This document shows, piece after piece, positions 9,187-64,000 of a stretch of 64,000 nucleotides of DNA. The stretch covers positions 15,118,482 to 15,182,481 of the forward strand of contig CM055897.1 in assembly GCA_029582155.1 (NCBI GenBank), read 5' to 3'. Made by a program: the position numbers and the translations under genes. Below the pieces are notes generated by a model. That model saw nothing but the letters and a program-made list of their open reading frames with translations, had not been told where the DNA came from and made no database searches. Positions within the stretch are counted from its first letter, which is position 1. Each line of letters starts with the position of its first letter. The DNA is from Panopea generosa. Taxonomy: Eukaryota > Mollusca > Bivalvia > Adapedonta > Hiatellidae.

Positions 9187-9284
9187 GTGTCAAGGGTGGT
9201 GTGTAGGGAGCTGATATTAGTTAAATATAGATAATTATACTATTTAGAATTATTCTTATTTAGAACCAACCAGCTGATTGGTTT

Positions 9285-10226: not shown

Positions 10227-10517
10227 AACATGCAGACAGAACCAGAGAATGCCATATCAGTGATGCATCAGGCCATGAAAAAAGCAAAGTGTACCCTCGG
10301 GCACAATTACAGGGTCAGGACCGTCACCCTGTCTGGTAATCGATACTACTACATGGGGGAGGTGACAGCATTTGGAAATGTGGTGATTGGACGTGGTAAT
10401 GGCATGTGCAAGAAAATGTGTAGGCACAGCACATACATTGCCACACTTCAACATCTGAAAACAAAATCATTTAAAGAATTGATGGTATCCCTACCAGAAG
10501 AACCTATTCCAATTATG
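10227..10517 (+). CDS. Exon C of NKRF-like gene: first dsRNA-binding-like domain
   Basis: This 291-nt, 97-codon exon is flanked by CTCCCTGCAG and GTAAGA. It encodes N-MQTEPENAISVMHQAMKKAK, then a beta-rich segment (NYRVRTVTLSGNRYYYMGEV, FGNVVIGRG), then GNGMCKKMCRHSTYIATLQHL. Helix, three strands, a G-x-G turn with a KK/RH basic patch and a final helix is the order of a double-stranded-RNA-binding domain. The opening ENAISVMHQAMKKA resembles the start of the repeated domains in NKRF, where an asparagine-containing helix leads into the strands. The usual AA of the last helix is replaced (STYIATL), so RNA binding may be weak. The exon is in phase 0 on both sides. NKRF likeness is recognition from memory of the family and is not proven. 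Confidence 0.7.
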
Positions 10518-12370: not shown

Positions 12371-12581
12371 GATCATTTACCCATGGAGGAACGTTTGGCA
12401 TATTTTTTCCATTCTCTTCCCAACTTATCATCCAAAACAAGTAACATCATAGGTAAAATAAACACGTTAGCCACGCAGAACGACCTCTCCATAATGTTGG
12501 TGTATAGGACTCCGGCAAAAAACAACCAGGAAAATGCTCTGCAGTGCGACTTATACTTGGAAAAAGTTTTCATAGCTTCAG
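12371..12581 (+). CDS. Exon D of NKRF-like gene: start of second dsRNA-binding-like domain
   Basis: A 211-nt exon between TGTTATTCAG and GTGAGT (12582). It reads DHLPMEERLAYFFHSLPNLS, then NIIGKINTLATQNDLSIMLV, then YRTPAKNNQEN, then LQCDLYLEKVFIASG, ending in phase 1. The pattern N-x-x-x-x-INxxAxxN-x-L-x-I-x-x-x-Y, followed by a strand with alternating hydrophobics, resembles the first helix and strands of the second repeated domain in NKRF-type proteins. The third strand ends at the glycine that is split across the next intron. That intron is 34 kb long and interrupts the domain just before its final helix. Confidence 0.7.
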
Positions 12582-13302
12582 GTGAGTAATGTACACATAG
12601 CTAGTAGACTTCTCAGTGAATAACTTGTGATAAATTCTACTGAAAGTAATGAAATTATAAATGATAATTCCACCGTTTTCAGTAATAATAAAAATAACAA
12701 AAATTGTTGATTTGAGTGAAGTGTTATTTAAACGATGTGAATACTTGAACATCTCACACAACAAATAATTTTGTACTGTTCTACATATAGAGACAGGCAC
12801 TTCTGGAACATTGGATACATTACCAATGGTTCTAAAAGTGCCTTGTTCCCATAGATAGTCCTCTGTTGGTCCAATTAAGCTGTAAAAAACATAGGATTGA
12901 CCAGGTTGCTTTTTCACAATTTCGATGGTTTGATGGCACCCTTCATTTTAGACAATTCTGCCCATTTGTTACAGTGTATCACTACACATTTTTAAACTGT
13001 TATAGCTTCATCATACAGTTCCAAATGCCATTCAAACTTGGCAGAAATCATGAAAATGTTCCAATGTTTCCATATGCACAAAGAAATATGACATTTTATG
13101 CATTTTTAACATAAAAAATAGCCCAAACTCTTTACACAGCTCTAATTTCTTGGGCGTAAGAATCTTGCTATCGTCATGTAAGGGAAGTAATTCTTTAGTG
13201 AGACCTAGTTGGCATGCCCATTAGTAGCTTCATTCATCAATATAGGACTTATCACTTCAATACTCACTCCGTGAAATAACAGTTATATCTCATTGAAACC
13301 AG
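12582..13302 (+). other. Intron D, 5' part without recognised feature
   Basis: AT-rich sequence between the donor at 12582 and the start of the 74-bp array. The open frames here (12570-12917 on the minus strand, 12866-13114 on the plus strand) show no domain or codon pattern that I can recognise. Confidence 0.55.
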
Positions 13303-17348: not shown

Positions 17349-20300
17349 CATGCAGAATGTCTTGGGTTTGTACTACTCTCCACAAACCACAGTGGTGGTC
17401 TAGTTGTAGTGTGTCTGCCTCGCATGCAGAATGTCTTGGATTTGTACTACTCTCCACAAACGACAGTGGTGATCTAGTGTTAGAGTGTCTGCCTCAGATA
17501 CAGAATGTCTAGGGTTTTTACTACTCTCCACAAACCGCAGTGGTGGTCTAGTGGTAGAGTGACTGACTCGCATGCAGAATGTCTTGGGTTTGTACTACTC
17601 TCCTCAAACAACAGTGATGGTCTAGTGGAAGAGTGTATGCCTCACATACAGAAGGTACTGGGTTTGTACTACTCTCCACAAACCACAGTGGTGGTCTAGT
17701 GTTAGAGTGTCTGCCTCGGATATAGAATTTCTAGGGTTTGTATTACTCTCCACAAACCGCAGTGTTGGTATATTGGTAGAGTGTCTGCCTCACATGCAGA
17801 ATGTCTTCGGTTTGTACTACTCTCCACCAACCACAGTGGTGGTCTAGTTGTAGTGTGTCTGCCTCGCATGCAGAATGTGTTAGGTTTGTATTACTCTCCA
17901 CAAACCACACTGGTGGTCTAGTGGTAGAGTGTCTGCCTCACATGCAGAATGTCTTGGGTTTGTACTACTCTCCACAAACCACTGTTGTGATGTATTGGTA
18001 GAGTGTCTGCCTCGTTTGCAGAATGTCTTGGGTTTGTACTACTCTCCACAAACCGCAGTGGTGGTCTAGTGGTAGTCTGTCTGCCTCACATGCAGAATGT
18101 CTTGGGTTTGTACTTCTATCCACAAACCGCAGTTGTGGTCTAGTGGTAGAGTGTCTGCCTCACATGCAGAATGTCTTGAGTTTGTACTACTCTCCACTAA
18201 CCACAGTGATGGTCTAGTGGTAGTGTGTCTGCCTCGCATGCAGAATGTCTTGGGTTTGTACTACTCTCCAAAAACTGCAGTGGTGGTCTAGTGGTAGTGT
18301 CTCTGCCTCGCATACTGAATGTCTTGGATTTGTACTAATCTCCACAAACTGCAGTGGTGGTCTAGTGGTAGTGTGTCTGCCTCACATGCAAAATTTGTTA
18401 GGTTTGTACTACTCTCCACAAACCACAGTGGTGGTCTAGTGGTAAAGTGTCTGCCTTGCATGCAGAATGTCTTGGATTTGTTCTACTCTCCACAAACCAC
18501 AGTGGTGGTCTAGTGGTAGTGTGTCTGCCTCACATGCAGAATGTCTTGGGTTTGTACTACTCTCCACAAACAACAGTGATGGTCTAGTGGTAGAGTGTCT
18601 GCCTCACATACAGAAGTTCTTGGATTTTACTACTCTCCACAAACCACAGTGGTGGTCTAGTGGTAGAGTGTCAGCCTCACATACAGAAGTTCTTGGATTT
18701 TACTACTCTCCACAAACCACAGTGGTGGTCTAGTGGTAGAGTGTCAGCCTGGCATGCAGAATGTCTTGGGTTTGTATTACTCTTCACAAACCACAGTGGT
18801 GGTCTAGTGGTAGAGTGTCTGCCTCACATGCAGAATGTCTTGGGTTTGTACTACTCTCCACAAACCACAGTGGTGGTCTAGTGGTAGAGTGTCTGCCTCA
18901 CATGGAGAATGTCTTGGGTTTGTACTACTCTCCACACACCACAGTGGTGGTCTAGTGGTAGTGTTTCTGCCTCACATGGAAAATGTCTTGGGTTTGTACT
19001 TCTTTCCACAAACTGCAGTGGTGGTCTAATGGTAGTGTGCCTGCCTCACATGCAGAATGTCTTGGATTTGTACTATTCTCCACAAACTGCAGTGGTGGTC
19101 TAGTGGTAGAGTGTCTGCCTCACATGCAGAATGTCTTGGATTTGTACTACTCTCCACAAACCACAGTGGTGGTCTAGTGGTAGTGTGTCTGCCTCACATG
19201 GAGAATGTCTTGGGTTTGTACTACTCTCCACAAACCACATTGGTGGTCTAGTGGTAGTGTGTCTGCCTCACATGCAGAATGTCTTGGGTTTGTACTACTC
19301 TCCACAAACCACAGTGGTGGTCTAGTGGTAGAGTGTCTGCCTCACATGCAGAATGTCTTGGGTTTGTACTACTCTCCACAAACCACAGTGGTGGTCTAGT
19401 GGTAGAGTGTCTGCCTCACATGGAGAATGTCTTGGGTTTGTACTACTCTCCACACACCACAGTGGTGGTCTAGTGGTAGTGTTTCTGCCTCACATGGAAA
19501 ATGTCTTGGGTTTGTACTACTTTCCACAAACTGCAGTGGTGGTCTAATGGTAGTGTGCCTGCCTCACATGCAGAATGTCTTGGATTTGTACTATTCTCCA
19601 CAAACTGCAGTGGTGGTCTAGTGGTAGAGTGTCTGCCTCACATGCAGAATGTCTTGGATTTGTACTACTCTTCACAAACCACAGTGGTGGTTTAGCGGTA
19701 GTGTGTCTGCCTCACATGGAGATTGTCTTGGGTTTGTACTACTCTCCACAAACCACATTGGTGGTCTAGTGGTAGTGTGTCTGCCTCACATGCAGAATGT
19801 CTTGGGTTTGTACTACTCTCCACAAACCACAGTGGTGGTCTAGTGGTAGTGTCTCTGCCTCGCATACAGAATGTCTTGGATTTGCACTAATCTCCACAAA
19901 CTGCAGTGGTGGTCTAGTGATAGTGTGTCTGCCTCACATGCAGAATGTGTTAGGTTTGTATTACTCTCCACAAACCACAGTGGTGGTCTAGTGGTAGAGT
20001 GTCTGCCTCACATGCAGAATGTCTTGGGTTTGTACTACTCTCCACAAACCACTGTGGTGGTGTAGTGGTAGAGTGTCTGCCTCGCATGCAGAATGTCTTA
20101 GATTTGTATTACTTTCCACAAACAACAGTGGTGGTATAGTGGTAGTGTACCTGCCTCACATGCAGAATGTCTTGGGTTTGTACTACTCTCCACAAACCGC
20201 AGTGGTGGTCTAGTGGTAGTCTGTCTGCCTCATATGGAGAATGTCTTGGGTTTGTACTACTCTCCACAAACCACAGTGGTGGTCTAGTTGTAGTGTGTCT

Positions 20301-45120: not shown

Positions 45121-46505
45121 TAGCACAAATGTTCACTATAATGAGGCAAAGTGTCACTTGTAATACCCATGTCTGTAACTAATGGTCAAGGTCACACATT
45201 GAGGTTCAAGGTCAGAAATACTTACAAATTTTGTGTCTGCTCCTTATGTAAACCTTTAGACAGATTTTGAAATTACATGGCGCATAATTATACCATAATC
45301 ATATGATGTGTTGCGCACAAGACCCTTAGAAGTTCAAGGTCAGATATAGGTACAAAATTTTGTTCCACTTCGTACCTTTTTATAGATTTTGAAATAACAT
45401 GGCACAAATGTTCACCAAAATAAGACGATATGTAGTGGGTTATACAGAGGTTAGTAACTCAATAGTCTAATACAAATGATTAACCTGCCAGGGCCAAGCT
45501 GTTCAAAGCTTGGTTAGCTTAACTCGGAGTTAAGTGAAATTTTCAAACCACAATAATTTTAGATTTACAACTTTTTAGATTATTGTTTTATTGAACATTA
45601 TGAAAATATGCCATTTTGTTTCTAAAAATGCATTTTAATTGCTATAAAATCATTGAGTATAAAAAAATATTAAAGTTACAAAATTTCATATAACCCAGGG
45701 TTTATGATGAATGATATGCCACTATAATTATAACCAACTTGTGAAAATTAATTTAAATTATATTGTTTTGCAAGTCTATTAATGCATATATGTAGAAGTT
45801 ACCTTAATGTTTGGTAGCCATTGAGTTGTTGACCCCGGTTTCACTAAACATATTTTGATATTTTCCTCAATGTCATTTTTAAATACTGAAACTTCACACT
45901 GACTGATTATGTTGCATGTTTTACTTAACCATTAGAGGTTTAATGACCGACTGTGCTGATTTACATGTGAAGTATTTCAAATAATAATTAAAAGAGAAAC
46001 TGAATAAAAAATGGTTGAGGAAGTTTCTTGCTTGATCATTTTTATTAATTACATTAAACCAGCCCTTGAACTTTGAACCACACAAGTAAAATATCTGGAT
46101 TTAGTGAGCACTATTCATTACTCATTCAATTCTCAGTCAGTGAGACACTTAATGGCTATTAAATATTTCTAAATGCAAATATAATTGTCATGAGCTATTT
46201 ATTTATCAACATGTCTGATTATGTAAAACTAAATTGAAAGTTACAAAAAAAATACCCTCAAAGGTCAAGATCGCACTTTCAACAAAATTTTGTGTTCTCT
46301 CCATAACTTGTGAACCATTTGACAGATTTTGAAAGACATGACACACATGTTCATCATAATTACAAAGTGTCACGTGCACTCAGGTCTCACATTTAGAGGT
46401 TTAAGATGAGAAATAGGTACAAACTTTCATGCCTACTCCATATCTTGTAAATCACTCAACAGATTTTGAAATAACATTGCACAAAAGTTCAACATAATAA
46501 GAGAA
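45121..46505 (+). mobile_element. Old repeat with about 130-bp core units, split by a later segment
   Basis: Motifs such as GTCAAGGTCACACATTGAGG, CAGATTTTGAAATTACATGG and TTCACCAAAATAAGACG recur with a spacing of about 130 bp at 45186-45440, and again at 46255-46505. The intervening 45441-46254 lacks them. That middle part contains GGGCCAAGCTGTTCAAAGCTTGG (within 45491-45513) and CTTAACTCGGAGTTAAGTG (45519-45537, with a short inverted repeat), which suggests a separate element inserted into the older one. Both are strongly decayed and no ends are certain. Confidence 0.45.
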
Positions 46506-46615
46506 CGATCATTCTGAGGTCAGTACTGGCAAGCTTAACGTTGTAGCCCTTTCGAATCTAGTTTTCAGAAAGTGAAAATTACAATTCAATAAATTTTATT
46601 TTTTCCCTCCTTCAG

Positions 46616-46780
46616 GTAAAAGTTTGTCAAGCCGGAGGAAGTGCAGGTTAAATGTGTATAACGAAGCATGGGAGGTTCTCAAGTCAACTACTGCGGATGC
46701 ACTGCTGAGTGAGCACATAAGAATCACAGATGAAGAACTTGAGGGGCCACATGTGATAGATGTGGTTATAATTGGACCTG
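46616..46780 (+). CDS. Exon E of NKRF-like gene: end of second dsRNA-binding-like domain
   Basis: A 165-nt exon between TCCCTCCTTCAG and GTAAGT (46781). Joined in phase 1 to exon D it continues SG-KSLSRRKCRLNVYNEAW, then EVLKSTTADALLSEHIRITD, then EELEGPHVIDVVIIGPG, ending in phase 1. The SRRK basic patch followed by a helix (RLNVYNEAWEVLK) is the expected end of a dsRNA-binding fold. The acidic tail and the IDVVIIGPG strand lead into unseen downstream sequence. The last 26 exon bases plus the donor (46755-46788) resemble the unit of the tandem array that fills the next intron. Downstream exons are not in the window. Confidence 0.75.
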
Positions 46781-49700
46781 GTAAGTTAAATGATGAAATA
46801 GTTATGTTCGTTAAAGAAACTGATGAAGAAATGTGATGTGGTTGTAAAAGGAAATGATAGGTTAATATGATGTTGCTGTTAAAGGAACTAATAGGTTTGC
46901 ATAATGATGGGTTTGTAGGATGTGGTTATTTAAGGAGCTTACATGTTTGTAGGATGTGGTTATTCAAGGAGCTTACATGTTTGTAGAATGTGGTTATTTA
47001 AGGAGCTTACATGTTTGTAGGATGTGGTTATTTAAGGAGCTTATGTGTTTGAAGAAAGTGGTTATTTAAGAAGCTTACTTGCTTGTAGGATGTGGTTATT
47101 TAAGGAGATTACATGTTTGTAGGATGTGGTTATTTAAGGAACTTACATGTTTGTAGAATGTGGTTATTTAAGGACCTGGTAAATTTGTAGAATGCAGTTA
47201 TTTAAGGAGCTTACATGTTTGTAGAATGTGGTTATTCAAGGAGCTTACATGTTTGTAGAATGTGGTTATTTAAGGAGCTTACATGTTTGTAGAATGTGGT
47301 TATTGAAGGAGCTTACATGTTTGTAGAATGTGGTTATTTAAGGAGCTTATATGTTTGTAGAATGTGGTTATTTAAGGAGCTTACATGTTTGTAGAATGTG
47401 GTTATTTAAGGAGCTGGTAAGTTTGTAGAATGCAGTTATTTAAGGAGCTTACATGTTTGTAGAATGTGGTTATTCAAGGAGCTTACATGTTTGTAGAATG
47501 TGGTTATTTAAGGAGCTTACATGTTTGTAGAATGTGGTTATTGAAGGAGCTTACATGTTTGTAGAATGTGGTTATTTAAGGAGCTGGTAATTTGTAAAAT
47601 GCGGTTATTTAAGGAGCTTACATGTTTGTAGAATGTGGTTATTTAAGGAGCTTACATGTTTGTAGAATGTGGTTATTTAAGGAGCCTACATGTTTGTAGA
47701 ATGTGGTTATTTAAGGATCTTACATGTTTGTAGAATGTGGTTATTTAAGGAGCTGGTAAGTTTGTAGAATGCAGTTATTTAAAGAGCTTACATGTTTGTA
47801 GAATGTGGTTATTTAAGGATCTTACATGTTTGTAGAATGTGGTTATTTAAGGAGCTGGTAAGTTTGTAGAATGCAGTTATTTAAAGAGCTTACATGTTTG
47901 TAGAATGTGGTTATTTAAGGAGCTGGTAAGTTTGTAGAATGCAGTTATTTAAGGAGCCTACATGTTTGTAGAATGTGGTTATTTAAGGAGCTTACATGTT
48001 TGTAGAATGTGGTTATTTAAGGAGCTGGTAAGTTTGTAGAATGCAGTTATTTAAAGAGCTTACATGTTTGTAGAATGTGGTTATTCAAGGAGCTTACATG
48101 TTTGTAGAATGTGGTTATTTAAGGAGCTTACATGTTTGTAGAATGTGGTTATTGAAGGAGCTTACATGTTTGTAGAATGTGGTTATTTAAGGAGCTGGTA
48201 AGTTTGTAAAATGCGGTTATTTAAGGAGCTTACATGTTTGTAGAATGTGGTTATTTAAGGAGCTGGTGGGTTTGTAGAATGTGGTTATTCAAAGAGCTTA
48301 CGCATTTGTAGAAAGTGGTTATTTAAGGAGCTGGTAAGTTTGTAGAATTTGGTTATTCAAGGAGCTTACATGTTTGTAGAATGTGGTTATTTAAGGAGCT
48401 TACATGTTTGTAGAATGTGATTATTTAAGGAGCTTACATGTTTGTAGAATGTGGTTAGCTAAGGAGCTGCTTGGTTTGTAAGATGTGGTTATTAAAGGAG
48501 CTTACGTGTTTGTAGAATGTGATTATTTAAAGAGCTTATGTGTTTGTAGAATGTAGTTATTTAAGGAGCTTATATGTTTGTAGAATGTGGTTATTTAAGG
48601 AGCTTACATGTTTGTAGAATGTGGTTATTTAAGGAGCTGGTAAGTTTGTAGAATGCAGTTATTTAAGGAGCTTACATGTTTGTAGAATGTGGTTATTCAA
48701 GGAGCTTACATGTTTGTAGAATGTGGTTATTTAAGGAGCTTACATGTTTGTAGAATGTGGTTATTGAAGGAGCTTACATGTTTGTAGAATGTGGTTATTT
48801 AAGGAGCTGGTAAGTTTGTAAAATGCGGTTATTTAAGGAGCTTACATGTTTGTAGAATGTGGTTATTCAAGGAGCTTACGCATTTGTAGAAAGTGGTTAT
48901 TTAAGGAGCTGGTAAGTTTGTAGAATTTGGTTATTCAAGGAGCTTACATGTTTGTAGAATGTGGTTATTTAAGGAGCTTACATGTTTGTAGAATGTGGTT
49001 ATTTAAGGAGCTTACATGTTTGTAGAATGTGGTTAGCTAAGGAGCTGTTATGTTTGTAAGATGTGGTTATTAAAGGAGCTTACGTGTTTGTAGAATGTGA
49101 TTATTTAAAGAGCTTATGTGTTTGTAGAATGTGGTTATTTAAGGAGCTGACCTGTTTGTAGAATGTGGTTATTTAAGGAGCTTACATGTTTATAGAATGT
49201 GGTTATTCAAGGAGCTAACATGTTCGTAGAATGTGGTTATTTAAGGAGCTTACATGTTTGTAGAATGTGGTTATTTAAGGAGCTTACATGTTTGTAGAAT
49301 GTGGTTATTTAAGAAGCTTACATGTTTGTAGAATGTGGTTATTTAAAGATCTTACATGTTTTTAGAATGTGGTTATTTAAGGATCTTACATGTTTGTAGA
49401 ATGTGGTTATTTAAGGAGCTTACATGTTTGTAGAATGTGGTTATTTAAGGAGCTTACATGTTTGTAGAATGTGGTTATTTAAGAAGCTTACATGTTTGTA
49501 GAATGTGGTTATTTAAGGATCTTACATGTTTGTAGAATGTGGTTATTTAAGGATCTTACATGTTTGTAGAATGTGGTTATTTAAGGAGCTTACATGTTTG
49601 TAGAATGTGGTTATTTAAGGAGCTTACATGTTTGTAGAATGTGGTTATTTAAGGATCTTACATGTTTGTAGAATGTGGTTATTTAAGGAGCTTACATGTT

Positions 49701-52700
49701 TGTAGAATGTGGTTATTTAAGAAGCTTACCTGTTTGTAGAATGTGGTTATTTAAGAAGCTTACCTGTTTGTAGAATGTGGTTATTTAAGGAGCTCACCTC
49801 TTTGTAGAATGTGGTTATTTAAGGAGCTTACATGTTTGTAGAATGTGGTTATTTAAGGAGCTTACATGTTTGTAGAATGTGGTTATTTAAGAAGCTTATC
49901 TGTTTGTAGAATGTGGTTATTCAAGGAGCTTACATGTTTGTAGAATGTGGTTATTTAAGGAGCTTACATGTTTGTAGAATGTGGTTATTTAAGGAGCTGA
50001 CATGTTTGTAGGATGTGGTTATTTAAGGAGCTTACATGTTTGTAGAATGTGGTTATTTAAGGAGCTCACATGTTTGTAGAATGTGGTTATTTAAGGAGCT
50101 TACATGTTTGTAGAATGTGGTTATTTAAGAAGCTTACCTGTTAGTAGAATGTGGTTATTCAAGGAGCTAACATGTTTGTAGAATGTGGTTATTTAAGGAG
50201 CTTACCTGTTTGTAGAATGTGGTTATTTTTAGGAACTGGTAAGTTTGTAGGATGACATTATTTAAGGAACTGGTATGTATTGTATGATTTGGATATTTAA
50301 GGAGCTTACGTGTTTGTAGAATGCGGTTATTTAAGGAGCTTACATGTTTGTAGAATGTGGTTATTTAAGAAGCTTACCTGTTTGTAGAATGTGGTTATTT
50401 AAGAAGCTTACCTGTTTGTAGAATGTGGTTATTTAAGGAGCTCACCTCTTTGTAGTATGTGGTTATTTAAGGAGCTTACCTGTTTGTAGAATGTGGTTAT
50501 TCAAGGAGTTTACATGTTTGTAAAATGTGGTTATTTAAGGAGCTTACATATTTGTAGAATGTGGTTATTTAAGGAGCTTACATGTTTGTAGAATCTGGTT
50601 ATTTAAGGAGCTTACATGTTCGTAGAATGTGGTTATTTAAGGAGCTTACATGTTTGTAGAATCTGGTTATTCAAGGAGCTTACATGTTCGTAGAATGTGG
50701 TTATTTAAGGAGCTTACATGTTCGTAGAATTTGGTTATTTAAGGAGCTTACATATTTGAAGAATTTGGTTATTTAAGGAGCTTACATGTTTGTAGAATGT
50801 GGTTATTTAAGGAGCTTACCTGTTTGTAGAATGTGGTTATTTAAGAAGCTTACCTGTTTGTAGAATGTGGTTATTTAAGGAACTTACATGTTTGTAGAAT
50901 GTGGTTATTTAAGGAGCTTACATGTTTGTAGAATGTGGTTATTTAAGGAACTTACATGTTTGTAGAATGTGGTTATTTAAGGAGCTTACATGTGTGAGAA
51001 TGAGGTTATTTAAGGAGCTTACCTGTTAGTAGAATGTGGTTATTCAAGGATCTAACATGTTTGTAGAATGTGGTTATTTAAGGAGCTTACCTGTTTGTAG
51101 AATGTGGTTATTTTTAGGAACTGTCAAGTTTGTAGGATGTGGTTATTTAAGGAACTGGTAAGTATTGTATGATTTGGATATTTAAGGAGCTTACGTGTTT
51201 GTAGAATGTGGTTATTTAAGGAGCTTACATGTTTGTAGAATGTGGTTATTTAAGAAGCTTACCTGTTTATAGAATGTGGTTATTTAAGAAGCTTACCTGT
51301 TTGTAGAATGTGGTTATTTAAGGAGCTCACCTCTTTGTAGAATGTGGTTATTTAAGGAGCTTACCTGTTTGTAGAATGTGGTTATTCAAGGAGCTTACAT
51401 GTTTGTAGAATGTGGTTATTTAGGGAGCTGGTGGGTTTGTAAAATGTGGTTATTTATGGAGCTGGTGGGTTTGTAGAATGTGGTTATTTAAGGAGCTTAC
51501 ATGTTTGTAGAATGTGGTTATTAAGCAGCTTACGTGTTTGTAGAATGTGGTTATTCAAAGAGCTTAGATGTTTGTTGAATGTGGTTATTCAAGGAGCTTA
51601 CATGTTTGTAGAATGTGGTTATCAAGCAGCTTACGTGTTTGTAGAATGTGGTTATTCAAAGAGCTTATGTGTTTGTAGAATGTGGTTAGTTAATGAGCTG
51701 GTTGGTTTGTACGATGTGGTTATTTAAGGAGCTTATGTGTTTGTAGAATGTGGTTATTTAAGGAGCTTACATGTTTTTAGAATGTGGTTATTCAAGGAGC
51801 TTACGTTTTTGTAGAATGTGATTAGTTAATGAGCTGTGTGGTTTGTAGGATGTGGTTATTTAAGGAGCTTACCTGTTTGTAGAATGTGGTTATTTAAGGA
51901 GCTGTTGGTTTGTAGAATGTGGTTATTCAAGGAGTTGATATGTTTGTAGAATGTGATTATTTAAGCAGCTGATGGGTTTGTAGAATGTGGTTATTCAAGG
52001 AGATTACATGTTTGTAGAATGTGGTTATTTAAAAAGCTTACATGTTTGTAGAATGTGGTTATTCGAGGAGATTACATGTTTGTAGAATGTGGTTATTTAA
52101 AAAGCTTACATGTTTGTAGAATGTGGTTATTCAAGGAACTGGTGGGTTTGTAGAATGTAGGATGTTGTTATTTAAGGAGCTTATGTGTTTGTAGGATGTG
52201 GTTATTTAAGGAGCTTATGTTTTTGTAGAATGTTGTTATTTAAGGAGCTTATGTGTTTGTAGAATGTGGTTATTTAAGGAACTTGTGTGTTTGTAGAATG
52301 TGGTTATTTAAGGATCTTACCTGTTTGTAGAATGTGGTTATTCAAGGAGCTTATGTGTTTGTAGAATGTGGCTATTAAAGGAGCTTATGTGTTTGTAGAA
52401 TGTGGCTATTTAAGAAGCTTACCTGTTTGTAGAATGTGGTTATTTAAGAAGCTGTGGGTTTGTAGAATGTGGTTATTTAAGGAGCTTATGTGTTTGTAGG
52501 ATGTGGTTATTGAAGGAGCTTACCTGTTTGTAGAATGTGGTTATTGAAGGAGCTGATGGGTTTGTAGAATGTGGTTATTTAAGGAGCTTATGTGTTTGTA
52601 GAATGTGGTTATTCAAGGAGCTTACCTGTTTGTAGAATGTGGTTATTTAAGGAGCTTATGTGTTTGTAGGATGTGGTTATTCAAGGAGTTTACGTGTTTG

Positions 52701-55700
52701 TAGAACGTGGCTATTCAAGGAGCTTATGTGTTTGTAGAATGTGGCTATTTAAGGAGCTTACCTGTTTGTAGAATGTGGTTATTTAAGAAGCTGTGGGTTT
52801 GTAGAATGTGGCTATTTAAGGAGCTTACCTGTTTGTAGAATGTGGTTATTTAAGAAGCCGTGGGTTTGTAGAATGTGGCTATTTAAGGAGCTTACCTGTT
52901 TGTATAATGTGGTTATTGAAGGAGCTTATGTGTTTGTAGAATGTGGCTATTTAAGGAGCTTACCTGTTTGTAGAATTTGGTTATTTAAGAAGCTGTGGGT
53001 TTGTAGAATGTGGCTATTGAAGGAGCTTACCTGTTTGTAGAATGTGGTTATTGAAGGAGCTTATGTGTTTGTAGAATGTGGCTATTTAAGGAGCTTACCT
53101 GTTTGTAGAATGTGGTTATTCAAAGAGCTTATGTGTTTGTAGAATGTGGCTATTTAAGGAGCTTACCTGTTTGTAGAATGTGGATATTTAAGAAACTGTG
53201 GGTTTGTAGAATGTGGTTATTTAAGGAGCTTACCTGTTTGTAGAATGTGGTTATTTAAGAAGCTGTGGGTTTGTAGAATGTGGTTATTTAAGCAGCTTAT
53301 GTGTTTGTAGGATGTGGTTATTGAAGGAGCTAACCTGTTTGTAGAATGTGGTTATTGAAGGAGCTGATGGGTTTGTAGAATGTGGTTATTTAAGGATCTT
53401 ATGTGTTTGTAGGATGTGGTTATTCAAGGAGATTACCTGTTTGTAGAATGTGGTTATTGAAGGAGCTGGTAAGTTTGTAGAATTGGTTATTTAAGAAGCT
53501 GTGGGTTTGTAGAATGTGGTTATTTAAGGAGCTTATGTGTCTGTAGGATGTGGTTATTGAATGAGCTTATGTGTTTGTAGAATGTGGTTATTTAAGGGAC
53601 TTGTGTGTTTGTAGAATGTGGTTATTTAAGGAACTTGTGTGTTTGTAGAATGTGGTTATTTAAGGAGCTTATGTGTTTGTAGGATGTGGTTATTGAAGGA
53701 GCTAATGTGTTTGTAGGATGTTGTTATTGAAGGAGCTTATGTGTTTGTAGGATGTGGTTATTGAATGAGCTTATGTGTTTGTAGAATGTGGTTATTGAAG
53801 GAGCTTATGTGTTTGTAGAATGTGGTTATTTAAGGAACTTGTGTGTTTGTAGAATGTGGTTATTTAAGGAGCTTATGTGTTTGTAGGATGTGGTTATTGA
53901 AGGAACTTGTGTGTTTGTAGAATGTGGTTATTTAAGGAGCTTACCTGTTTGTAGAATGTGGTTATTTAAGAAGCTGTGGGTTTGTAGAATGTGGTTATTT
54001 AAGGAGCTTATGTGTTTGTAGGTTGTGGTTATTGAAGGAGCTTATGTGTTTGTAGAATATGGTTATTGAAGGAGCTGGTAAGTTTGTAGAATGTGGTTAT
54101 TTAAGAAGCTGTGGGTTTGTAGAATGTGGTTATTTAAGGAGCTTATGTGTTTGTAGGATGTGGTTATTGAAGGAGCTTATGTGTTTGTAGAATGTGGTTA
54201 TTTAAGGTACTTGTGTGTTTGTAGAATGTTGTTATTTAAGAAGCTGTGGGTTTGTAGAATGTGGTTATTTAAGGAGCTTATGTGTTTGTAGGATGTGGTT
54301 ATTGAAGGAGCTTATGTGTTTGTAGAATGTTGTTATTTAATGAGCTTATGTGTTTGTAGAATGTGGTTATTTAAGGAACTTGTTTGTTTGAAGAATGTGG
54401 TTATTAAAGGAGCTTATGTGTTTGTAGAATGTTGTTATTTAATGAGCTTATGTGTTTGTAGAATGTGGTTATTTAAGGAACTTGTGTGTTTGAAGAATGT
54501 GGTTATTTAAGGAGCTTATGTGTTTGTAGAATGTGGTTATTGAAGGAGCTGATGGGTTTGTAGAATATGGTTATTTAAAGAGCTTATGTGTTTGTAGGAT
54601 GTGGCTTTTTAAGGAGCTTATGTGTTTGTAGGATGTGGTTATTGAAGGAACTTGTGTGTTTGTAGAATGTGGTTATTTAAGGAGCTTACCTGTTTGTAGA
54701 ATGTGGTTATTTAAGAAGCTGTGGGTTTGTAGAATGTGGTTATTTAAGGAGCTTATGTGTTTGTAGGATGTGGTTATTGAAGGAGCTTACCTGTTTGTAG
54801 AAAGTGGTTATTTAAAAAGTTGTGGGTTTGTAGAATGTGGTTATTTAAGGAGCTGATGTGTTTGTAGGATGTGAATATTTAAGGATCTGGTTGGTTTTTA
54901 GAATGTGGTTATTTAAGGAGCAGGTGGGATTGTAAGATGTGAATATTTAAGGAGCTGGTAAGTTTGTAGAATGTCATTATTTAAAGAGCAGGTGGGATTG
55001 TAAGATGTGAATATTTAAGGAGCTGGTAAGTTTGTAGAATGTCGTTATTTAAGGAGCTGGTGGGATTGTAGGATGTGAATATTTAAGGAGCTGGTGGGAT
55101 AGTAGGATGTGAATATTTAATGAGCTGGTCAGTTTGTAGAATGTGGTTATTTAAAGAGCTGGTGGGGATAGTAGGATGTGAATATTTAAGGAGCTGGTAA
55201 GTTTGTAGAATGTGGTTATTTAAGGAATTGATATGTTTGTAGAATGTTGTTATTTAAGGAGCTGATGGCTTTGTAGAATGTGGTTATTTTAGGAGCTTGT
55301 AAGTTTGTAGAATGTGGTTATTAAGGAGTTGATATGTTTGTAGAATGTGAATATTTAAGCAGCTGGTGGGATTGTAGGATGTGGTTATTTAAGGAGCTGG
55401 TGGGGTTTTAGGATGTTAATATTTAAGGAGCTGGTGGGTTTTAAGATGTGAATATTTAAGGAGCTGGTAAGTTTGTAGAATGTGGTTATTTAAGGAGCTG
55501 TTGGGATTGTAGGATGTGAATATTTAAAGAGCTGGTAAGTTTGTAGAATGTGGTTATTCAAGGAGCTGGTAGGATTATAGGATGTGAATATTTAAGGAGC
55601 TGGTAAGTTTGTAGAATGTGGTTATTTAAAGAGCTGGTGGGATTGTAGGATGTCAATATTTGAGGAGCTGGTAAGTTTGTAGAATGTGGTTATTTAAGGA

Positions 55701-57558
55701 GCTGGTGGGATTGTAGGATGTGAATATTTAAAAAACTGGTAAGTTTGTAGAATGTGGTTATTTAAGAAGCTGGTGGGATTGTAGGATGTAAATATTTAAG
55801 GAGCTGGTAAGTTTGTAGAATGTGGTTATTTAAGGAGCTGGTGGGATTGTAGGATGTGAATATTTAAAAAACTGGTAAGTTTGTAGAATGTGGTTATTTA
55901 AGAAGCTGGTGGGATTGTAGGATGTGAATATTTAAGAAGCTATTGGGATTGTAGAATGTCATTATTTAAAGAGCAGGTGGGATTGTAAGATGTGAATATT
56001 TAAGGAGCTGGTAAGTTTGAAAATGTTGTTATTCAAGGAGCTGGTGGGTTTGTAAGATGTGAATATTTAAGGAGCTGGTAAGTTTGTAGAATGTGGTTAT
56101 TTAAGGAGCTTTTGGGATTGTAGGATGTGAATATTTAAGGAGCTGGTGGGATTGTAGGATGAAAATATTTAAGGAGCTGGTTAGTTTGTAGAATGTGGTT
56201 ATTTTAGGAGTGGTAAGTTTGTAGAATGTGGCTATTAAGGAGTTGATATGTTTGTAGAATGTGATTATTTAAGCAGCTGATGGGATTGTAGGATGTGGTT
56301 ATTTAAGGAGCTGGTTGGATTTTAGGATGTGAATATTTAAGGAGCTGGTGGATTCGTAAGATGTGAATATTTAAGGAGCTGGTAAGTTTGTAGAATGTGG
56401 TTATTTAAGGAGCTGTTGGGATTGTAGGATGTGAATATTTAAGGAGCTGATGGGTTTGTAGAATGTGGTTATTTAAGGAGCTGGTAGGATTGTAGGATGT
56501 GAATATTAAAGGAGCTGGTAAGTTTGCAGAATGTGGTTATTTAAGGAGCTGGTGGGATTGTAGGATGTAAATATTTAAGGAGCTGGTAAGTTTGTAGAAT
56601 GTGGTTATTTAAAGAGCTGGTAGGATTGTAGGATGTGAATATTTAAAGAGCTGGTAGGTTTGTAGAATGTGGTTATTTAAGGAGCTGGTGGGTTTGTAGG
56701 ATGTAAATATTTAAGGAGCTGGTAAGTTTGTAGGATGTGATTATTTAAGGAGCTATTGGGATTGTAGGATGTGAATATTTAAGGAGCTGGTTAGTTTGTA
56801 TAATGTGGTTATTTAAGGAGCTGGTGGGATTATAGGGTGTCAATATTTAAGGAGCTGGTTAGTTTTTATACTGTAGTTATTTAAGGAGCTGGTGGGATTG
56901 TCGGATGTAAATATTTAAGGAGCTGGTAAGTTTATAAAATGTGGTTATTGAAGGAGCTTGTGGGTTTGTAAGATGTGAATATTTAAGGAGCTAGTAAGTT
57001 TGTAGAATGTGGTTATTTAAGGAGCTGGTGGGATTGTAGGATGTGAATATTGTAGGAGCTGGTTGGATTGTAGGATGAAAATATTTAAGGAGCTGGTTAG
57101 TTTTAGAATGTGGTTATTTAAGGAGGTGGTGGGATTGTTGGATGTGAATATTTAAGCAGCTGATGGGTTTTTAGAATGTGGTTATTTAAGGAACTTACAT
57201 GTCTGTAGAATGTGGTTATTTAAGGAGCTTGTGGGTTTGTAGGATGTAGTTGTTTGAGGAAATGGTAAGTTTATAGAATGTGGTTATTTAAGGAGCTTGT
57301 GGGTTTGAAGGATGTAGTTGTTTGAGGAACTGGTAAGTTTGTAGAATGTGGTTATTTAAGGAGCTGGTGGGATTGTAAGATGTGAATATTTAAGGAGCTG
57401 GTAAGTTTGTAGAATGTGAATATTTAAGGAGCTGGTGGGTTCGTAAGATGTGAATATTTAAGGAGCTGGTAAGTTTGTAGAATGTGGTTATTTAAGGAGC
57501 TGTTGGCAATGTAGGATGTGAATATTTAAGGAGCTGATGGGTTTGTAGAATGTGGTTA
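46781..57558 (+). repeat. 34-bp tandem array, left part, seeded at the exon E splice donor
   Basis: The common unit is ATGTGGTTATTTAAGGAGCT followed by TACATGTTTGTAGA, 34 nt. The first few units after the exon are strongly diverged (46791-46918) and then become regular. Variants are zoned. TTACATG forms dominate to about 51.4 kb. TTATGTG, TTACCTG and GCTGTGGG forms dominate at 51.4-54.85 kb. From 54.85 kb, alternating GATGTGAATATTTAAGGAGC and GAATGTGGTTATTTAAGGAG units with TGGTAAGTTTGTAG or TGGTGGGATTGTAG endings make a dimer of about 68 bp. Many units keep CTG-GTAAGTTTG, a good 5' splice-site match. Open frames in it (51446-51727, 52840-53040, 54295-54510) are period artefacts. Confidence 0.9.
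48294..49100 (+). repeat. 578-bp (17-unit) duplication in the 34-bp array
   Basis: The rare variants CGCATTTGTAGAAAGTGG (48301 and 48879) and TTTGTAAGATGTGGTTATTA (near 48473 and 49051) recur exactly 578 bp apart in the same order, together with GAATTTGGTTATTCAAGG and GTTAGCTAAGGAGCTG between them. A second pair of landmarks, TGTATGATTTGGATATTT at 50281 and 51166, marks another block shift of about 885 bp. Confidence 0.7.
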
Positions 57559-58390
57559 TTATACCCCCAACAAACGAAGTTTGAGAGGGTATATTGGAGT
57601 CACCCTGTGGTTGGTCTGTCGGTCTGTTGGTCTGTCGGTCTGTCAGTCTGTCGGTCGGTCTGTCTGTCCGTTGCAATTTTCCTTGTCCGGAGCATCACTT
57701 GAAAAGTACTGGATGGAATTTCATCAAACGTCATACAATGGTAGAATATAATGAGAGGAAGTGCAGTGTACAAGAAACATAACCCTATTCTTGCTAATTA
57801 CAGAGTTATTGCCCTTTGATATATTTCCCTTGTCCAGAGCATTACTTTTAAAGTACTGGATGAAATTTCATCAAACTTCATACAATGGTAGAATATAATG
57901 ACAGGAAGTGCAGTGTACAGGAAACATAACTCTATTCTTGCTAATTACAGAGTTATTGCCCTTTGATATATTTCCCTTGTCCGGAGCATTACTTTTAAAG
58001 TACTGGATGGAATTTCATCAAACTTCATACAATGGTAGAATATAATGAGAGGAAGTGCAGTGTACAGGAAACATAACTCTATTCTTGCTAATTACAGAGT
58101 TATTGCCCTTTGATATATTTCCCTTGTCCGGAGCATAACTTTTAAAGTACTGGATGGAATTTCATCAAACTTCATACAATGGTAGAATATAATGACAGGA
58201 AGTGCAGTGTACAGGAAACATAACTCTATTCTTGCTAATTACAGAGTTATTGCCCTTTGATATATTTCCCTTGTCTGGAGCATAACTTTAAAACTATTGG
58301 ATATAATTTAATAAAACTTCATACAATGGTAAGCCATTTTCTGTCATGGCAGCATTCGGGGGTATTCATCACCTGCAGTGATAGCTCTAG
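57559..58390 (+). mobile_element. Helitron-like (pearl-type) non-autonomous element inserted in the 34-bp array
   Basis: The 5' end has an 8-bp hairpin (ATACCCCC with GAGGGTAT) containing an inner CAAAC-GAA-GTTTG stem. Next is a GGTCTGTC microsatellite (57612-57668), then four complete 147-bp core repeats plus part of a fifth (GAGC landmarks at 57690, 57837, 57984, 58131, 58278). The 3' end has a hairpin ATCAC-CTGCA-GTGAT (58368-58382) followed by AGCTCTAG. Removing 57559-58390 restores the array unit GTGGTTA|TTTAATGAGC without duplication, an insertion between A and T. Terminal hairpin, CTRR end and A/T target without duplication are Helitron traits. The start is TT, not the canonical TC, and a T|T placement two bases to the right fits as well. 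There is no coding capacity. Confidence 0.75.
57612..57668 (+). repeat. GGTCTGTC-type microsatellite
   Basis: Repeats of GGTCTGTC and GGTCTGTTG form the microsatellite part of the Helitron-like element, between its 5' hairpin and its 147-bp core repeats. Small open frames on both strands here (57488-57676 and 57594-57782) are not genes. Confidence 0.85.
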
Positions 58391-59566
58391 TTTAATGAGC
58401 TGGTGGGATTGTAGGATGTGAATATTTAAAGAGCTGGTAAGTTTGTAGAATGTGGTTATTCAAGGAGCTGGTAAGTTTGTAAAATGTGGTTATTCAAGGA
58501 GCTGGTAGGATTGGAGGATGTGAATATTTAAGGAGCTGGTAAGTTTGTAGAATGTTGTTGTTTAAGGAGCTGGTGGGATTGTAAGATGTGAATATTTAAG
58601 GAGCTGGTAAGTTTGTAGAATGTGGTTGTTTAAGGAGCTGGTGGGATTGTAGGATGTGAATATTTAAGGAGCTGGTAAGTTTGCAGAATGTTGTTATTTA
58701 AGGAGCTGGTGGGTTTGTAAGATGTGAATATTTAAGGAGCTGGTAAGTTTGTAGAATGTTGTTATTTAAGGAGCTGGTGGGATTGTAGGATGTGAATATT
58801 TAAGGAGCTGGTGGGATTGTAGGATGTGAATATTTAAAAAGCTGGTAAGTTTGTAGAATGTGGTTATTTAAGAAGCTGGTGGGATTGTAGGATGTGAATA
58901 TTTAAGGAGCTATTGGGATTGTAGGATGTGAATATTTAAGGAGCTTGTTAGTTTGTAGAATGTGGTTTTTTAAGGAGCTGGTGGGATTGTAGGATGTGAA
59001 TATTTAAGGAGCTGGTAAGTTTGTAAAATGTGGTTATTTAAGGAGCTGGTGGGTTTGTAAGATGTGAATATTTAAGGAGCTGGTAAGTTTGTAGAATGTG
59101 ATTATTTAAGGAGCTGGTGGGATTATAGGATGTGAATATTTAAGGAGCTGGTAAGTTTGTAGAATGTGGTTATTTAAGGAGTTGGTGGGATGATAGGATG
59201 TAAATAGTTATTGTTGGTAGAATGTGAATATTTAAGCAGCTGATGGGTTTTTAGAATGTGGTTATTTAAGAAACTTACATGTCTGTAGGATGTGGTTATT
59301 TAAGGAACTGGTAAGTTTGTAGGATGTGATTGTTTGAGGAACTGGTAAGTTTGTAGAATGTGGTTATTTAAGGAGCTGGTAAGTTTGTAAGATGTGGTTG
59401 TTTAAGGAACCAGTCAATTTGTAAGATGTGGTTATTTGAGGAACTGATAAGTTTGTAGGATGAGGTTATTTAAGGAGCTTGTATGTTTGTAGAATGAGGT
59501 TATTTAAGGAACTGTTAAGTTTGTAGGATGTGGTTATTTAAGGAACTGGTAAGTTTGTAGGATAGG
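58391..59566 (+). repeat. 34-bp tandem array, right part
   Basis: This continues the array after the inserted element in the same phase and subfamily: GATGTGAATATTTAAGGAGC / TGGTAAGTTTGTAGAATG dimers of about 68 bp. After about 59.2 kb the units become less regular. Most units carry CTG-GTAAGTTTG. Confidence 0.9.
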
Positions 59567-60518
59567 TTTTAGCTTGACAATTCAGGAAATAAAGAGAGCT
59601 ATTCTACTTATCCAAGCCTCAGTATCACACCTTGGTAAAAGTTTTGCATGCAAGTCTTTATCTCAATAACCTTTGTATGTATTGACTTGAAACTTTACAC
59701 AAGCCTTCCCAGTCATCAACCCTACTACAATAACTTAGTAAGATTACTCTTAAATGAATATAATGCAAATTATTGCCATTGTTTGACTTAAAAATTCTGT
59801 TTAAAGTTTTGCATGCAAGTACCATCATGTCCATATCTCACCAACCATTCAATATATAAATTTTGATTGAAACTTTACATAAGCCTTCCCAGTCATCAAC
59901 CCTACTACACTAACTAAGTTAGATAACTCTTGCTTGAATATGATTAAAAATTTTGCCGTTGTTTGACTTAGAAATTCTGTTTAAAGTTTTGCTAGCAAGT
60001 GCCATCATGTCCATATCTTACCAACCATTCAATATATTTGTTTGAAACTTTACACAAGCACCTAGTCATCAACCCTACTACACTTACTAAGTTAGATAAC
60101 TCTTGCTTGAATATAATACAAATTATTGCCCTTGTTTAACTTAGAAATTCTTGATAATTTTTTGCGTGCAAGTACCATCAAGTCCATATCACACCAACCA
60201 CTCAATATATTTGATTGAAACTTTACATATGGCTTTGTAGTCATGAAACCAAATAAATTAATTAAGTGGGATAACTCTTACCAGATTTTTTTTAATATTA
60301 AGGCCTTTGTTTGACTAATTTTATAACTCAGCAGTCACTGCATGTATTGGATTGAATCTTCATACAAGTTATTGCAGTTATAAGACCTACTCAATTGTTG
60401 ATTTTATGATTTAGATAACTCTTATTTGCTTGGATTTGTCATCAGTTTTAATCAAATTTGTACTTTTGTGACAAATATTTGAATAGTCGAGCACGCTGTC
60501 CCTCCGACAGCTCTTGTT
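59567..60518 (+). mobile_element. Family A element, copy 3 (best-preserved 3' end), inserted in the array
   Basis: The left end, TTTTAGCTTGACAATTCAGG, is followed by core repeats of about 175-180 bp with AAGCCTTCCCAGTCATCAAC at 59701 and 59881 and a changed version near 60055. The right end has GAATAGTCGAGC, then a perfect hairpin GCTGTC-CCTCC-GACAGC and TCTTGTT. The flanks are tandem-repeat sequence (GTAGGATAGG on the left, AATTAAAGGAAC on the right), so it entered an existing array. The border fits insertion between two T residues without duplication, as reported for Helentron-type elements; the class is inferred. Confidence 0.7.
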
Positions 60519-60897
60519 AATTAAAGGAACTAATAAGTTTGCACGATATGGTTGTTAAAGGAACTGACAGGTTTTTCCAGGATGTGGTTCTTGAAGAACT
60601 GATAGATATAATTATATGATCTGGTTGTTAAAGAAGTGTCCAGAATATGGTTGTTATAGAAAGTGATAAATTTCAAATGAACTCGTTAGTTTCCAGGATG
60701 ACGTTGTAAACAGAACCGGTAAGTAGCAGGGTTTATGAAGACTAGTAAATAACCATACAGAGGTTAATAAAGATAACTGGCAAAGTGGTTGTATGGCAAC
60801 TTGTTAGTAGCAGGACGTGGTTGTTATGAAAACATGGAAGTAGCAGGATGAAATTGCTAAAGCAACCAATAAAGCAAGAAGTGGTTGAAAATAGCAT
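60519..60897 (+). repeat. Diverged monomers linking the 34-bp and 109-bp arrays
   Basis: Irregular units of about 30-40 bp, such as GATATGGTTGTTAAAGGAAC, GATGTGGTTCTTGAAGAACT and CGTGGTTGTTATGAAAAC with AGTAGCAG endings, link the 34-bp family to the 109-bp family. No open frame or other feature is seen. Confidence 0.7.
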
Positions 60898-63800
60898 AAT
60901 GTGATTGCCATGGAAACTGGTAAGTACCAGGTCTTTTGTTAGGACACTTGGTAAGTAGCAGTTGTTTAATGGGATGTGAATGTTTAAGAACTGGTAAATA
61001 CCAGGATATGGTTGTTAAGGCAACTGTTAAGTAGCAGGATGTCTTTGTTAGGACAACTGGTAAGTAACAGTTGTTTAGTAGGATATGAATGTTTAAGAAC
61101 TGGTAAGTACCAGCATATGGTTGTTAAGGCAACTGTTAAGTAGCAGGATGTCTTTGTTAGGACAACTGGTAAGTAACAGTTGTTAAGTAGGATATGAATG
61201 TTTAATTACTGGTTAGTACCAGGATATGGTTATTAGGCAACTGTTAAGTAGCAGGATGTCTTTGTTAGGACAACAGGTAAGTAACAGTTGTTTAGTAAGA
61301 TATGAATGTTTAAGAACTGGTAAGTACCAGGATATTGTTGTTAAGGCAACTGTTAAGTAGCAGGATGTCTTTTGTGAGGACAGCTGATAAGTAACAGTTG
61401 TTTAGTAGGATATGAATGTTAAGGAACTGGTAAGTACCAGGATATGGTTGTTAAGGCAACTGTTAAGTAGCAGGATGTCTTTGTTAGGACAACAGGTGAG
61501 AAGCAGTTTTTTAGTGGGATGTGAATGCTAAAGAACTGGTAAGTACCAGGATATGGTTGGTAAGGAAACTGTTAAGTAGCAGAATGTCTTTGTCAGGACA
61601 ACTGGTAAGTAACAGTTGTTAAGTAGGATATGAATGTTTAGGAACTGGTAAGTACCAGGATATTGTTGTTAAGGCAACTGTTAAGTAGCAGGATGTCTTT
61701 TGTTAGGACAACTGATAAGTAACAGTTGTTTAGTAAGATATGAATGTTAAGGAACTGGTAAGTACCAGGATATGGTTGTTAAGGCAACTGTTAAGTAGCA
61801 GGATGTCTTTGTTAGGACAACAGGTGAGAAGCAGTTTTTTAGTTGGATGTGAATGCTAAAGAACTGGTAAGTACCAGGATATGGTTGATAAGGCAACTGT
61901 TAAGTAACAGGATGTCTTTGTTAGGACAACAGGTGAGAAGCAGTTTTTTAGTGGGATGTGAATGCTAAAGAACTGGTAAGTACCAGGATATGGTTGTTAA
62001 GGCAACTGTTAAGTAGCAGGATGTCTTTGTTAGGACAACAGGTGAGAAGCAGTTCTTTAGTGGGATGTGAATGTTAAAGAACTGGTAAGTACCAGGATAT
62101 GGTTGTTAAGACAACTGTTAAGTAGCAGGATGTCTTTGTTAGGACAACAGGTGAGAAGAAGTTTTTTAGTTGGATGTGAATGCTAAAGAACTGGTAAGTA
62201 CCAGGATATGGTTGTTAAGGCAACTGTTAAGTAGCAGGATGTCTTTGTTAGGACAACAGGTGAGAAGCATTATTTTAGTGGGATGTGAATGCTAAATAAC
62301 TGGTAAGTACCAGGATATGGTTGTTAAGGAAACTGTTAAGTAGCAGGATGTCTTTGTTAGGACAACAGGTGAGAAGTAGTTTTTTAGTGGGATGTGAATG
62401 CTAAAGAACTGGTAAGTACCAGGATATGGTTGTTAGGGCAATTGTTAAGTAGCAGGATGTCTTTGTTAGGACAACAGGTGAGAAGCATTTTTTTAGTGGG
62501 ATGTGAATGCTAAAGAACTGGTAAGTACCAGGATATGGTTGATAAGGAAACTGTTAAGTAGCAGAATGTCTTTGTTAGGACAACAGGTGAGAAGCAGTTT
62601 TTTAGTGGGATATGAATGCTAAAGAACTGGTAAGTACCAGGATATGGTTGTTAAGGCAACTGTTAAGTAGCAGGATGTCTTAATTAGGACAACAGGTGAG
62701 AAGCAGTTTTATGTGGGATGTGAATGCTAAAGAACTGGTAAGTACCAGGATATGGTTGTTAAGGCAACTGTTTAGTAGCAGGATGTCTTTGTTAGGACAA
62801 CTGGTAAGTAGCAGTTGTTTAGTGGGATGTGAATGTTAAAGAACTGGTAAGTACCAGGATATGGTTAGTATGGCAACTGTTAAGTAGCAGGATGTCTTTG
62901 TTAGGACAACTGGTAAGTAACAGTTGTTTAGTAGGATATGAATGTTTAAGAACTGGTAAGTACCAGGATATGGTTGTTAAGGCAAATGTTAAGTAGCAGG
63001 ATGTCTTTGTTAGGACAACTGGTAAGTAACAGTTGTTAAGTAGGATATGAATGTTTAATTACTGGTTAGTACCAGGATATGGTTATTAGGCAACTGTTAA
63101 GTAGCAGGATGTCTTTGTTAGGACAACAGGTAAGTAACAGTTGTTTAGTAAGATATGAATGTTTAAGAACTGGTAAGTACCAGGATATGGTTGATAAGGC
63201 AACTGTTAAGTAGCAGGATGTCTTTGTCAGGACAACTGGTAAGTAACAGTTGTTAAGTAGGATATGAATGTTAAAGAACTGGTAAGTACCAGGATATTGT
63301 TGTTAAGGCAACTGTTAAGTAGCAGGATGTCTTTTGTGAGGACAACTGATAAGTAACAGTTGTTTAGTAGGATATGAATGTTAAGGAACTGGTAAGTACC
63401 AGGATATGGTTGTTAAGGCAACTGTTAAGTAGCAGGATGTCTTTGTTAGGACAACAGGCGAGAAGCAGTTTTTTAGTGGGATGTGAATGCTAAAGAACTG
63501 GTAAGTACCAGGATATGGTTGATAAGGAAACTGTTAAGTAGCAGGATGTCTTTGTCAGGACAACTGGTAAGTAACAGTTGTTAAGTAGGATATGAATGTT
63601 TAGGAACTGGTAAGTACCAGGATATTGTTTTTAAGGCAACTGTTAAGTAGCAGGATGTCTTTTGTGAGGACAACTGATAAGTAACAGTTGTTTAGTAGGA
63701 TATTAATGTTAAGGAACTGGTAAGTACCAGGATATGGTTGTTAAGGCAACTGTTAAGTAGCAGGATGTCTTTGTTAGGACAACAGGTGAGAAGCAGTTTT

Positions 63801-64000
63801 TTAGTGGGATGTGAATGCTAAAGAACTGGTAAGTACCAGGATATGGTTGATAAGGCAACTGTTAAGTAGCAGGATGTCTTTGTTAGGTCAACAGGTGAGA
63901 AGCAGTTTTTTAGTGGGATGTGAATGCTAAAGAACTGGTAAGTACCAGCATATGGTTGTTAAGGCAACTGTTAAGTAGCAGGATGTCTTTGTTAGGACAA
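60898..64000 (+). repeat. 109-bp trimeric tandem array, about 28 copies, runs off the window
   Basis: The period is 109 bp (GGATATGG at 62095, 62204 and 62313). Each unit is three relatives of one monomer: GATATGGTTGTTAAGGCAAC with TGTTAAGTAGCAG (33 nt); GATGTCTTTGTTAGGACAAC with TGGTAAGTAACAG or AGGTGAGAAGCAG plus an extra T-rich piece (44 nt); and GATATGAATGTTTAAGAACT with GGTAAGTACCAG (32 nt). The CTG-GTAAGTACC in the third monomer is kept in almost every unit and fits a 5' splice site closely. Units differ mainly in the second monomer, which has TGGTAAGTAACAGTTGTT and AGGTGAGAAGCAGTTTTT versions in alternating blocks. Confidence 0.9.

Follow-up and report, generated by a model that had tools for sequence, protein, structure and literature searches.

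Which came first at this locus, the end of a coding exon or the minisatellite that stands against it? The window analysed here is a stretch of 64,000 nt from the bivalve Panopea generosa (C4:15118482-15182481, in an assembly of 1.47 Gb and 39 contigs). It carries a gene in which one coding exon, here called exon E, is followed by an intron of 24,970 nt, 95% of which is tandem repeat when two interruptions with other units are counted. A first-pass annotation had noticed that the repeat resembles the exon's 5' splice junction and had preferred the reading that the exon end and its donor were copied and that the array then grew; this preference has since gained support from a paralogue that possesses the exon end and no related array, and from the restriction of the array core to two introns. 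We consider it highly probable that the array is an exon-seeded minisatellite, grown from the exon-E 5' junction. In what follows, C4 denotes the window gene, and C12 and P3 its two paralogues in the same assembly.

Results

The last 22 nt of exon E (46759-46780) and the adjoining donor match the 34-bp array in the register of the GT, so that the repeat unit holds both the exonic and the intronic side of a real boundary (17-19 of 22 positions on the exon side, donor in register). The array also adjoins the boundary that it copies: the profile match begins inside exon E in C4 (46759) as well as in C12 (string position 55130). The agreement first reported for the 28-nt border, 23 of 28 positions in register with the GT donor, was reproduced exactly. 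When 18,466 GT sites were scored as a null (tandem-masked fetched sequence, both strands, exon-E donors retained), the three highest 28-nt scores were those of the exon-E donors, with 23 for C4, 22 for C12 and 19 for P3, the next best site reaching 18. For the exon side only, comparison of the last 22 nt with the core of the C12 array gave 17 for C4, 19 for C12 and 18 for P3; the other 8 donors of the same genes reached 3-11 of 22, and 18,454 GT sites taken without the three exon-E donors had a mean of 5.85 (standard deviation [sd] 2.08) and a maximum of 16 of 22. A separate null that kept the exon-E donors contained two sites of at least 17, in agreement with the C12 and P3 exon-end scores. 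The concern voiced with the original observation, that unrelated borders might match equally well, did not materialise among the 8 donors and the 18,454 GT sites. In a BLAST comparison of 23 exon boundaries with 117 tandem-array rows, many of them overlapping, 52 rows had E values of at most 1; 45 of these belonged to exon-E donors (E from 1.9e-5) and 7 to other boundaries (best E 0.28). As far as sequence can tell, exon end and array are homologous.

Homology by itself gives no direction, and the paralogues supply one. The four-exon order of C4 is repeated in C12 and P3, with exon E at C12:15193188-15193352 (coordinates by conversion) and, on the minus strand, at C12:15004408-15004572, respectively; a protein search of the genome with P3 exon E returned these three copies and none further (3 matches from 4 candidates). 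In all three paralogues exon E splices in frame with its neighbours, in C4 from the GTAAGT at 46781, which points to use of the donor at 46780/46781. At the protein level, C4 is 66% and P3 54% identical to C12. Synonymous divergence (dS) between C4 and C12 is 0.42 and nonsynonymous divergence (dN) 0.21, and comparisons with P3 are near or beyond saturation at synonymous sites. On the basis of identity and synonymous divergence, P3 is thus the outgroup of the C4/C12 pair.

P3 has exon E at the same intron position and phase and with the same end motif, VVEVVVKGNG, directly before the junction. Between its exon end, GAGGTCGTTGTTAAGGGAAATG followed by GTAAAA, and the array core, 18 of 22 positions agree. 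The ensuing intron of 4,265 nt holds no related array: Tandem Repeats Finder (TRF) reported four small unrelated tandem repeats there, the nearest 1.26 kb from the donor, and none of the four was matched by the array-unit profile. Across 10 kb of P3, on both strands, the best match to the array core is P3's own exon end, which is also the sole hit of the array-unit profile below E=0.1 (E=0.021, or 0.039 without the C12 row that bridges the exon). As to remnants in the P3 intron, no core match other than the exon end exceeds 15 of 22, a score that lies inside the GT-site null.

A search of the whole 1.47-Gb genome for the core pattern, tolerating no more than one mismatch, gave 79 matches, every one of them in the two introns after exon E and in the sense orientation (79/79; 0 antisense), and a reversed control pattern had no match genome-wide. 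Since the core at this stringency occurs nowhere else, no known outside repeat offers itself as a source of the exon end. A dispersed repeat or introner-like element at the exon, considered as a candidate, was rejected on the same 79 of 79 matches at this stringency. Taken together, the P3 exon end without an array and the confinement of the core to two introns place the exon end before the array, and we regard the exon end as most likely the older of the two.

The array also appears to remember an exon end that the window gene has since lost. Read in the exon frame, the core of the C12 array gives DVVVKGT, to be compared with DVVVKGS, EVVVKGN and DVVIIGP at the ends of the C12, P3 and C4 exons. 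Because the C12-array core reads DVVVKG and the window exon DVVIIG, the repeat would carry the former exon end, since altered in the window. The array seed survives as a real copy in the final 22 nt of exon E, GATGTGGTTATAATTGGACCTG; we take the seed itself to be the exon end in its ancestral state, before the final codons of the window exon changed.

When did the array arise? C12 has a donor-anchored array at the same place as C4, with 44 intronic units parsed, among them 23-bp units without the intron-derived part. The proximal introns of C4 and C12 can be aligned, and their first intron bases, GTAAGTTAA, are identical. In the window, the units at 46794, 46834 and 46866 are of the C12 type at 3 of 3 diagnostic positions, and two derived states appear as early as the next, partial unit (46892). 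No unit among the 350 from 46916 on is fully C12-type: 237 have the derived state throughout, and another 58 have it at two positions and show a third base at the remaining one (unit relations by mismatch distances). The interior of the array is thus homogenised and its edge diverged, and the earlier description of units becoming increasingly array-like away from the exon did not hold, the three proximal units being of the C12 rather than the local type. Shuffling points the same way: the stretch 46790-46829 scores 28 against a C12-type unit (shuffles 14.3, sd 3.0; 0 of 300 reach this score) and is not above chance against a C4-type unit (138 of 300), and a control stretch from P3 is not clearly array-like (87 and 294 of 300). 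Because both arrays sit at the donor, the first intron bases are shared and the proximal window units are C12-type, the array is very likely older than the C4/C12 split; we infer one array before that split rather than two origins.

Within the window intron, about 600 exon-derived units are recognisable in three blocks (Table 1). A1 and A2 together comprise 347 parsed intronic 34-bp units. The array had been thought to end at 59566; this limit did not survive, for a related 33/109-bp array, here called B, extends from about 60545 to about 71294, beyond the window end. Its consensus GATATGGTTGTTAAGGCAACTG agrees at 18 of 22 positions with the C12 exon end, at 17 with that of P3 and at 15 with that of C4. 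From 60545 to 71750 there are 252 sense cores of at least 14 of 22 and no antisense core, and donor-like GTAAGT is frequent.

Table 1. Exons and tandem repeats at the exon E locus, in window coordinates
Feature	Position	Strand	Basis or remark
Upstream coding exon, double-stranded RNA-binding domain (dsRBD)-like	10227..10517	+	Spliced in frame, stop-free
Second coding exon (LPMEERL...)	12371..12581	+	Order, phase and splice sites same in C12 and P3
Exon E, 165 nt, phase 1/1	46616..46780	+	Last 22 nt at 46759-46780
Authentic 5' splice site and first intron bases	46781..46789	+	GTAAGTTAA, same in C12; array-unit version GTAAGTTTG
Degenerate edge units, mostly C12-like (older) type	46790..46910	+	Alignment and diagnostic positions
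34-bp array A1, derived type	46911..57560	+	TRF; 316 parsed rows (no more than 2 gaps each), of which one is the exon's own end
Interrupting 147-bp tandem repeat, not exon-derived	57676..58331	+	TRF; relative elsewhere at C12 locus
34-bp array A2, 32 full units	58391..59563	+	TRF; donor-keeping consensus GATGTGGTTATTTAAGGAGCTG, then GTAAGTTTG from the junction
Interrupting 173-bp tandem repeat, different unit	59682..60227	+	TRF
Array B, 33-bp units in 109-bp higher-order unit	60545..64000, on to ~71294	+	TRF; same family as A1/A2
Next exon, beyond window	71751-71967 (window scale)		Phase-consistent open reading frame with three upstream exons

How many of the units still look like splice donors? 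Sites were scored by a position-weight table for human donors. The real donor, CTG-GTAAGT, scores 6.6, and 192 sense sites of the window intron equal or exceed this value, 172 of which have exactly its sequence from -3 to +6, against 30 antisense; the C12 intron has one such site, and the P3 intron and the 34-kb upstream intron, largely a 74-bp array, have none. Exact copies of CTG/CAG-GTAAGT number 48 in 46755..59566, 84 within the window and 174 over the full length of the intron, so that the hundreds of donor-like sequences announced earlier come close to the mark only when strong sites across the entire intron are counted. Similarly, the consensus first given for the array is real as a donor-bearing subtype and is not the commonest form: among the 347 A units, GGTAAGT occurs in 50, GT is at the donor position in 136, and the most frequent 7-mer there is TACATGT (84). 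In the C12 array, 3 of 44 intronic units have GT at that position. The exon half of the unit is better kept than the donor half. Going downstream from the real donor, one first meets a weaker copy, CTGGTAAAT, which starts at 47176; an exact copy does not begin until 47414, at a distance of 636 nt. A reading frame continued from exon E would run into a stop at 46834. No gradient of decoys away from the exon was seen in counts per 20 units, which are irregular and not monotonic.

Several further observations concern the surroundings of the array. A relative of the interrupting 147-bp repeat, 90-96% alike, lies at C12:15187586-15188617 (L004/L003), at a different place within the C12 locus, and the repeat may be a tandem unit that is mobile or has been inserted recurrently. 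From 46001 to 60000 the sense strand has a very strong excess of G over C (skew 0.38-0.80 in 2-kb windows); in a transcribed intron, such a skew could promote R-loops. The intron before exon E contains a 74-bp array of about 403 copies (13304-43095), whose unit we took by eye, from its box motifs, to be tRNA-like; ARAGORN predicted no tRNA in 13000-20000, and this candidate was dropped. A 59-bp array of about 98 copies lies upstream of the dsRBD-like exon (3398-9187), and an Rfam scan of the window gave no match. Just after the exon-E donor in L003 (~5151-5172), GTAAGTTAACTGGCAAGTTA forms a short donor repeat whose second copy has GC for GT. The intron start GTAAGTTA (46781) and the start of the next exon GCAAATTG (L010, ~7751) both read Gly-Lys-Leu after a phase-1 G, probably by chance.

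As for the gene itself, the Pfam family dsrm matches the P3 protein above cutoff (E=4.6e-8) and the C12 protein weakly, below cutoff (E=0.066); the C4 protein has no dsrm match and one sub-cutoff match to another family. A search of the protein collection came back empty, and a PDB search gave nothing or weak matches only. An identity of NKRF or CDKN2AIP type, which was also considered, is supported by no search and was abandoned.

Discussion

We propose the following model for the origin of the array. In the ancestor of C4 and C12, after the split from P3, about 34 nt straddling the exon-E 5' junction (22-25 exonic and 9-12 intronic nt, including GTAAGT) would have been tandemly duplicated, presumably by slippage or unequal exchange. 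With the upstream junction staying in use, the extra copies would have become intronic and, free of coding constraint, may have multiplied and been homogenised. C12 would have kept a short array in which nearly all units lost the GT; in C4 the array would have expanded to about 600 recognisable units in the three blocks of a 25-kb intron, with the exon-adjacent units escaping homogenisation and so retaining the older type. The decoys may be tolerated by virtue of exon-adjacent copies that lack GT, an exact copy that first appears 636 nt away, and the stop that read-through into the intron would meet at 46834. Under exon definition the nearest donor wins, and the first exact decoy lies beyond the usual exon-definition range. 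Splicing would then proceed from the first donor only, chosen here too by exon definition as the nearest, and long extensions of the exon would go unused or be degraded.

Several points weigh against this account. Taken alone, the P3 profile match is weak (E 0.02-0.04), and the core pattern, in accepting at most one mismatch, would miss more diverged relatives elsewhere. P3 is the sole outgroup, and an older array lost from P3 is formally conceivable, though no remnant of one was found. In C12, the stretch that follows the donor (+10 to +36) does not convincingly resemble the array, with 142 and 27 of 300 shuffles reaching its scores, and a C4-C12 dN/dS of about 0.5 indicates only moderate coding constraint.

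Could the array have been kept for a function? Its units might act as U1-binding decoys against premature polyadenylation, in a telescripting-like manner, might regulate the exon-E donor or might serve as recursive splice sites, and the surplus of sense over antisense sites as strong as the real donor, with none in the 34-kb neighbouring intron, speaks for such a role. The donor part has, however, decayed in C12, where one strong site is left, and in most A units of C4; the exon-derived part outlasts it, contrary to what selection for donors would predict, and array B owes its counts to a homogenised 109-bp subtype. We therefore find a retained function improbable, and since the donor half is less well kept than the exon half, we read the decoys as a by-product. 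Most likely the array has no function and is a by-product of minisatellite turnover.

Even less probable, in our estimate, is the reverse direction, in which a pre-existing repeat supplied the exon end by exonisation of array sequence. The symmetry of homology would allow it, and the C4 exon shares one base of the C4-array type (A at core position 10 of 22). It would have to contend with an exon end that is present in P3 without an array, that encodes protein and has been retained as VI/VV-D/E-VVVKG-G in C12 and P3, and whose core pattern is met nowhere else in the genome at one mismatch or fewer, and with a stop (TAA) in the exon frame of the C4 array type. That the resemblance is a chance one, picked out by scanning many features, is hardly credible even granted that the consensus first reported was that of a donor-like subtype, given that the C4 border ranks first among 18,466 sites with the same border of its two paralogues second and third, and that the 8 other donors of these genes stay at 3-11 of 22.

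What is the relevance of an array seeded by an exon? For a very large boundary minisatellite, an array-free paralogue here gives the direction of events, exon first and array second, and what the array has kept of the exon end is an earlier form than the one now found in the window exon. The locus also offers a natural test in which one donor is picked among many downstream copies identical to it from -3 to +6. A bolder proposition, which we hold to be possible but doubtful, is that the seeding of arrays by exons has been a general way of enlarging introns in this genome and that a natural gene tolerates about 190 downstream donors as good as its own or better, the choice being made by exon definition (nearest donor, close decoys neutralised) and not by donor strength. 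Were this true, exon-seeded arrays would also be fossil records of earlier exon sequences.

How does the array compare with known systems? Minisatellites in introns have been reported without a described exon origin (PMC3045353, PMC6905558). In potato RdRp, an intron was gained by tandem duplication across an exon/intron boundary (PMC4974935); the duplication is alike, but no new intron arose at exon E, where a pre-existing one was enlarged. Intron gain by tandem duplication was itself considered for our locus and rejected, the same intron occurring at the same position and phase in array-free P3. Human segmental duplications contain internal tandem repeats at exon-intron boundaries, with units of about 30 bp, that alter exon or intron length in recent paralogues (PMC2812944). 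They share with our array the minisatellite unit of about 30 bp and the position at exon-intron borders of paralogues and differ in scale, averaging 4 units and 160 bp, with half in coding sequence (PMC2812944), as against about 600 units in an intron. Since such short human repeats have been reported (PMC2812944), the process would not be confined to lancelets; so large a boundary array outside lancelets was not recognised in the open-licence literature searched.

The closest parallel is with the amphioxus mirages, tandem duplications of exon/intron boundaries that leave splicing undisturbed and are unstable in length (PMC3087553, PMC3902484). Known cases include BflGb6, with 6 and 3 units in two haplotypes, a tandem triplication in PGBD5 and, cited second-hand, Adh3 with units of 10-72 bp (PMC3087553, PMC3902484), a range that brackets the present 34 bp. 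As in mirages, the unit spans the exon/intron boundary and carries copies of the splice signal, the interior is homogenised and the edge units are left out of homogenisation; read from the sequence of one assembly, our array thus has the anatomical features of a mirage. Unlike the 6, 3 and three units of the amphioxus examples, it numbers about 600 in a 25-kb intron, and, again unlike them, it appears to have been inherited by two paralogues and can be polarised by a third that has the exon end and no array.

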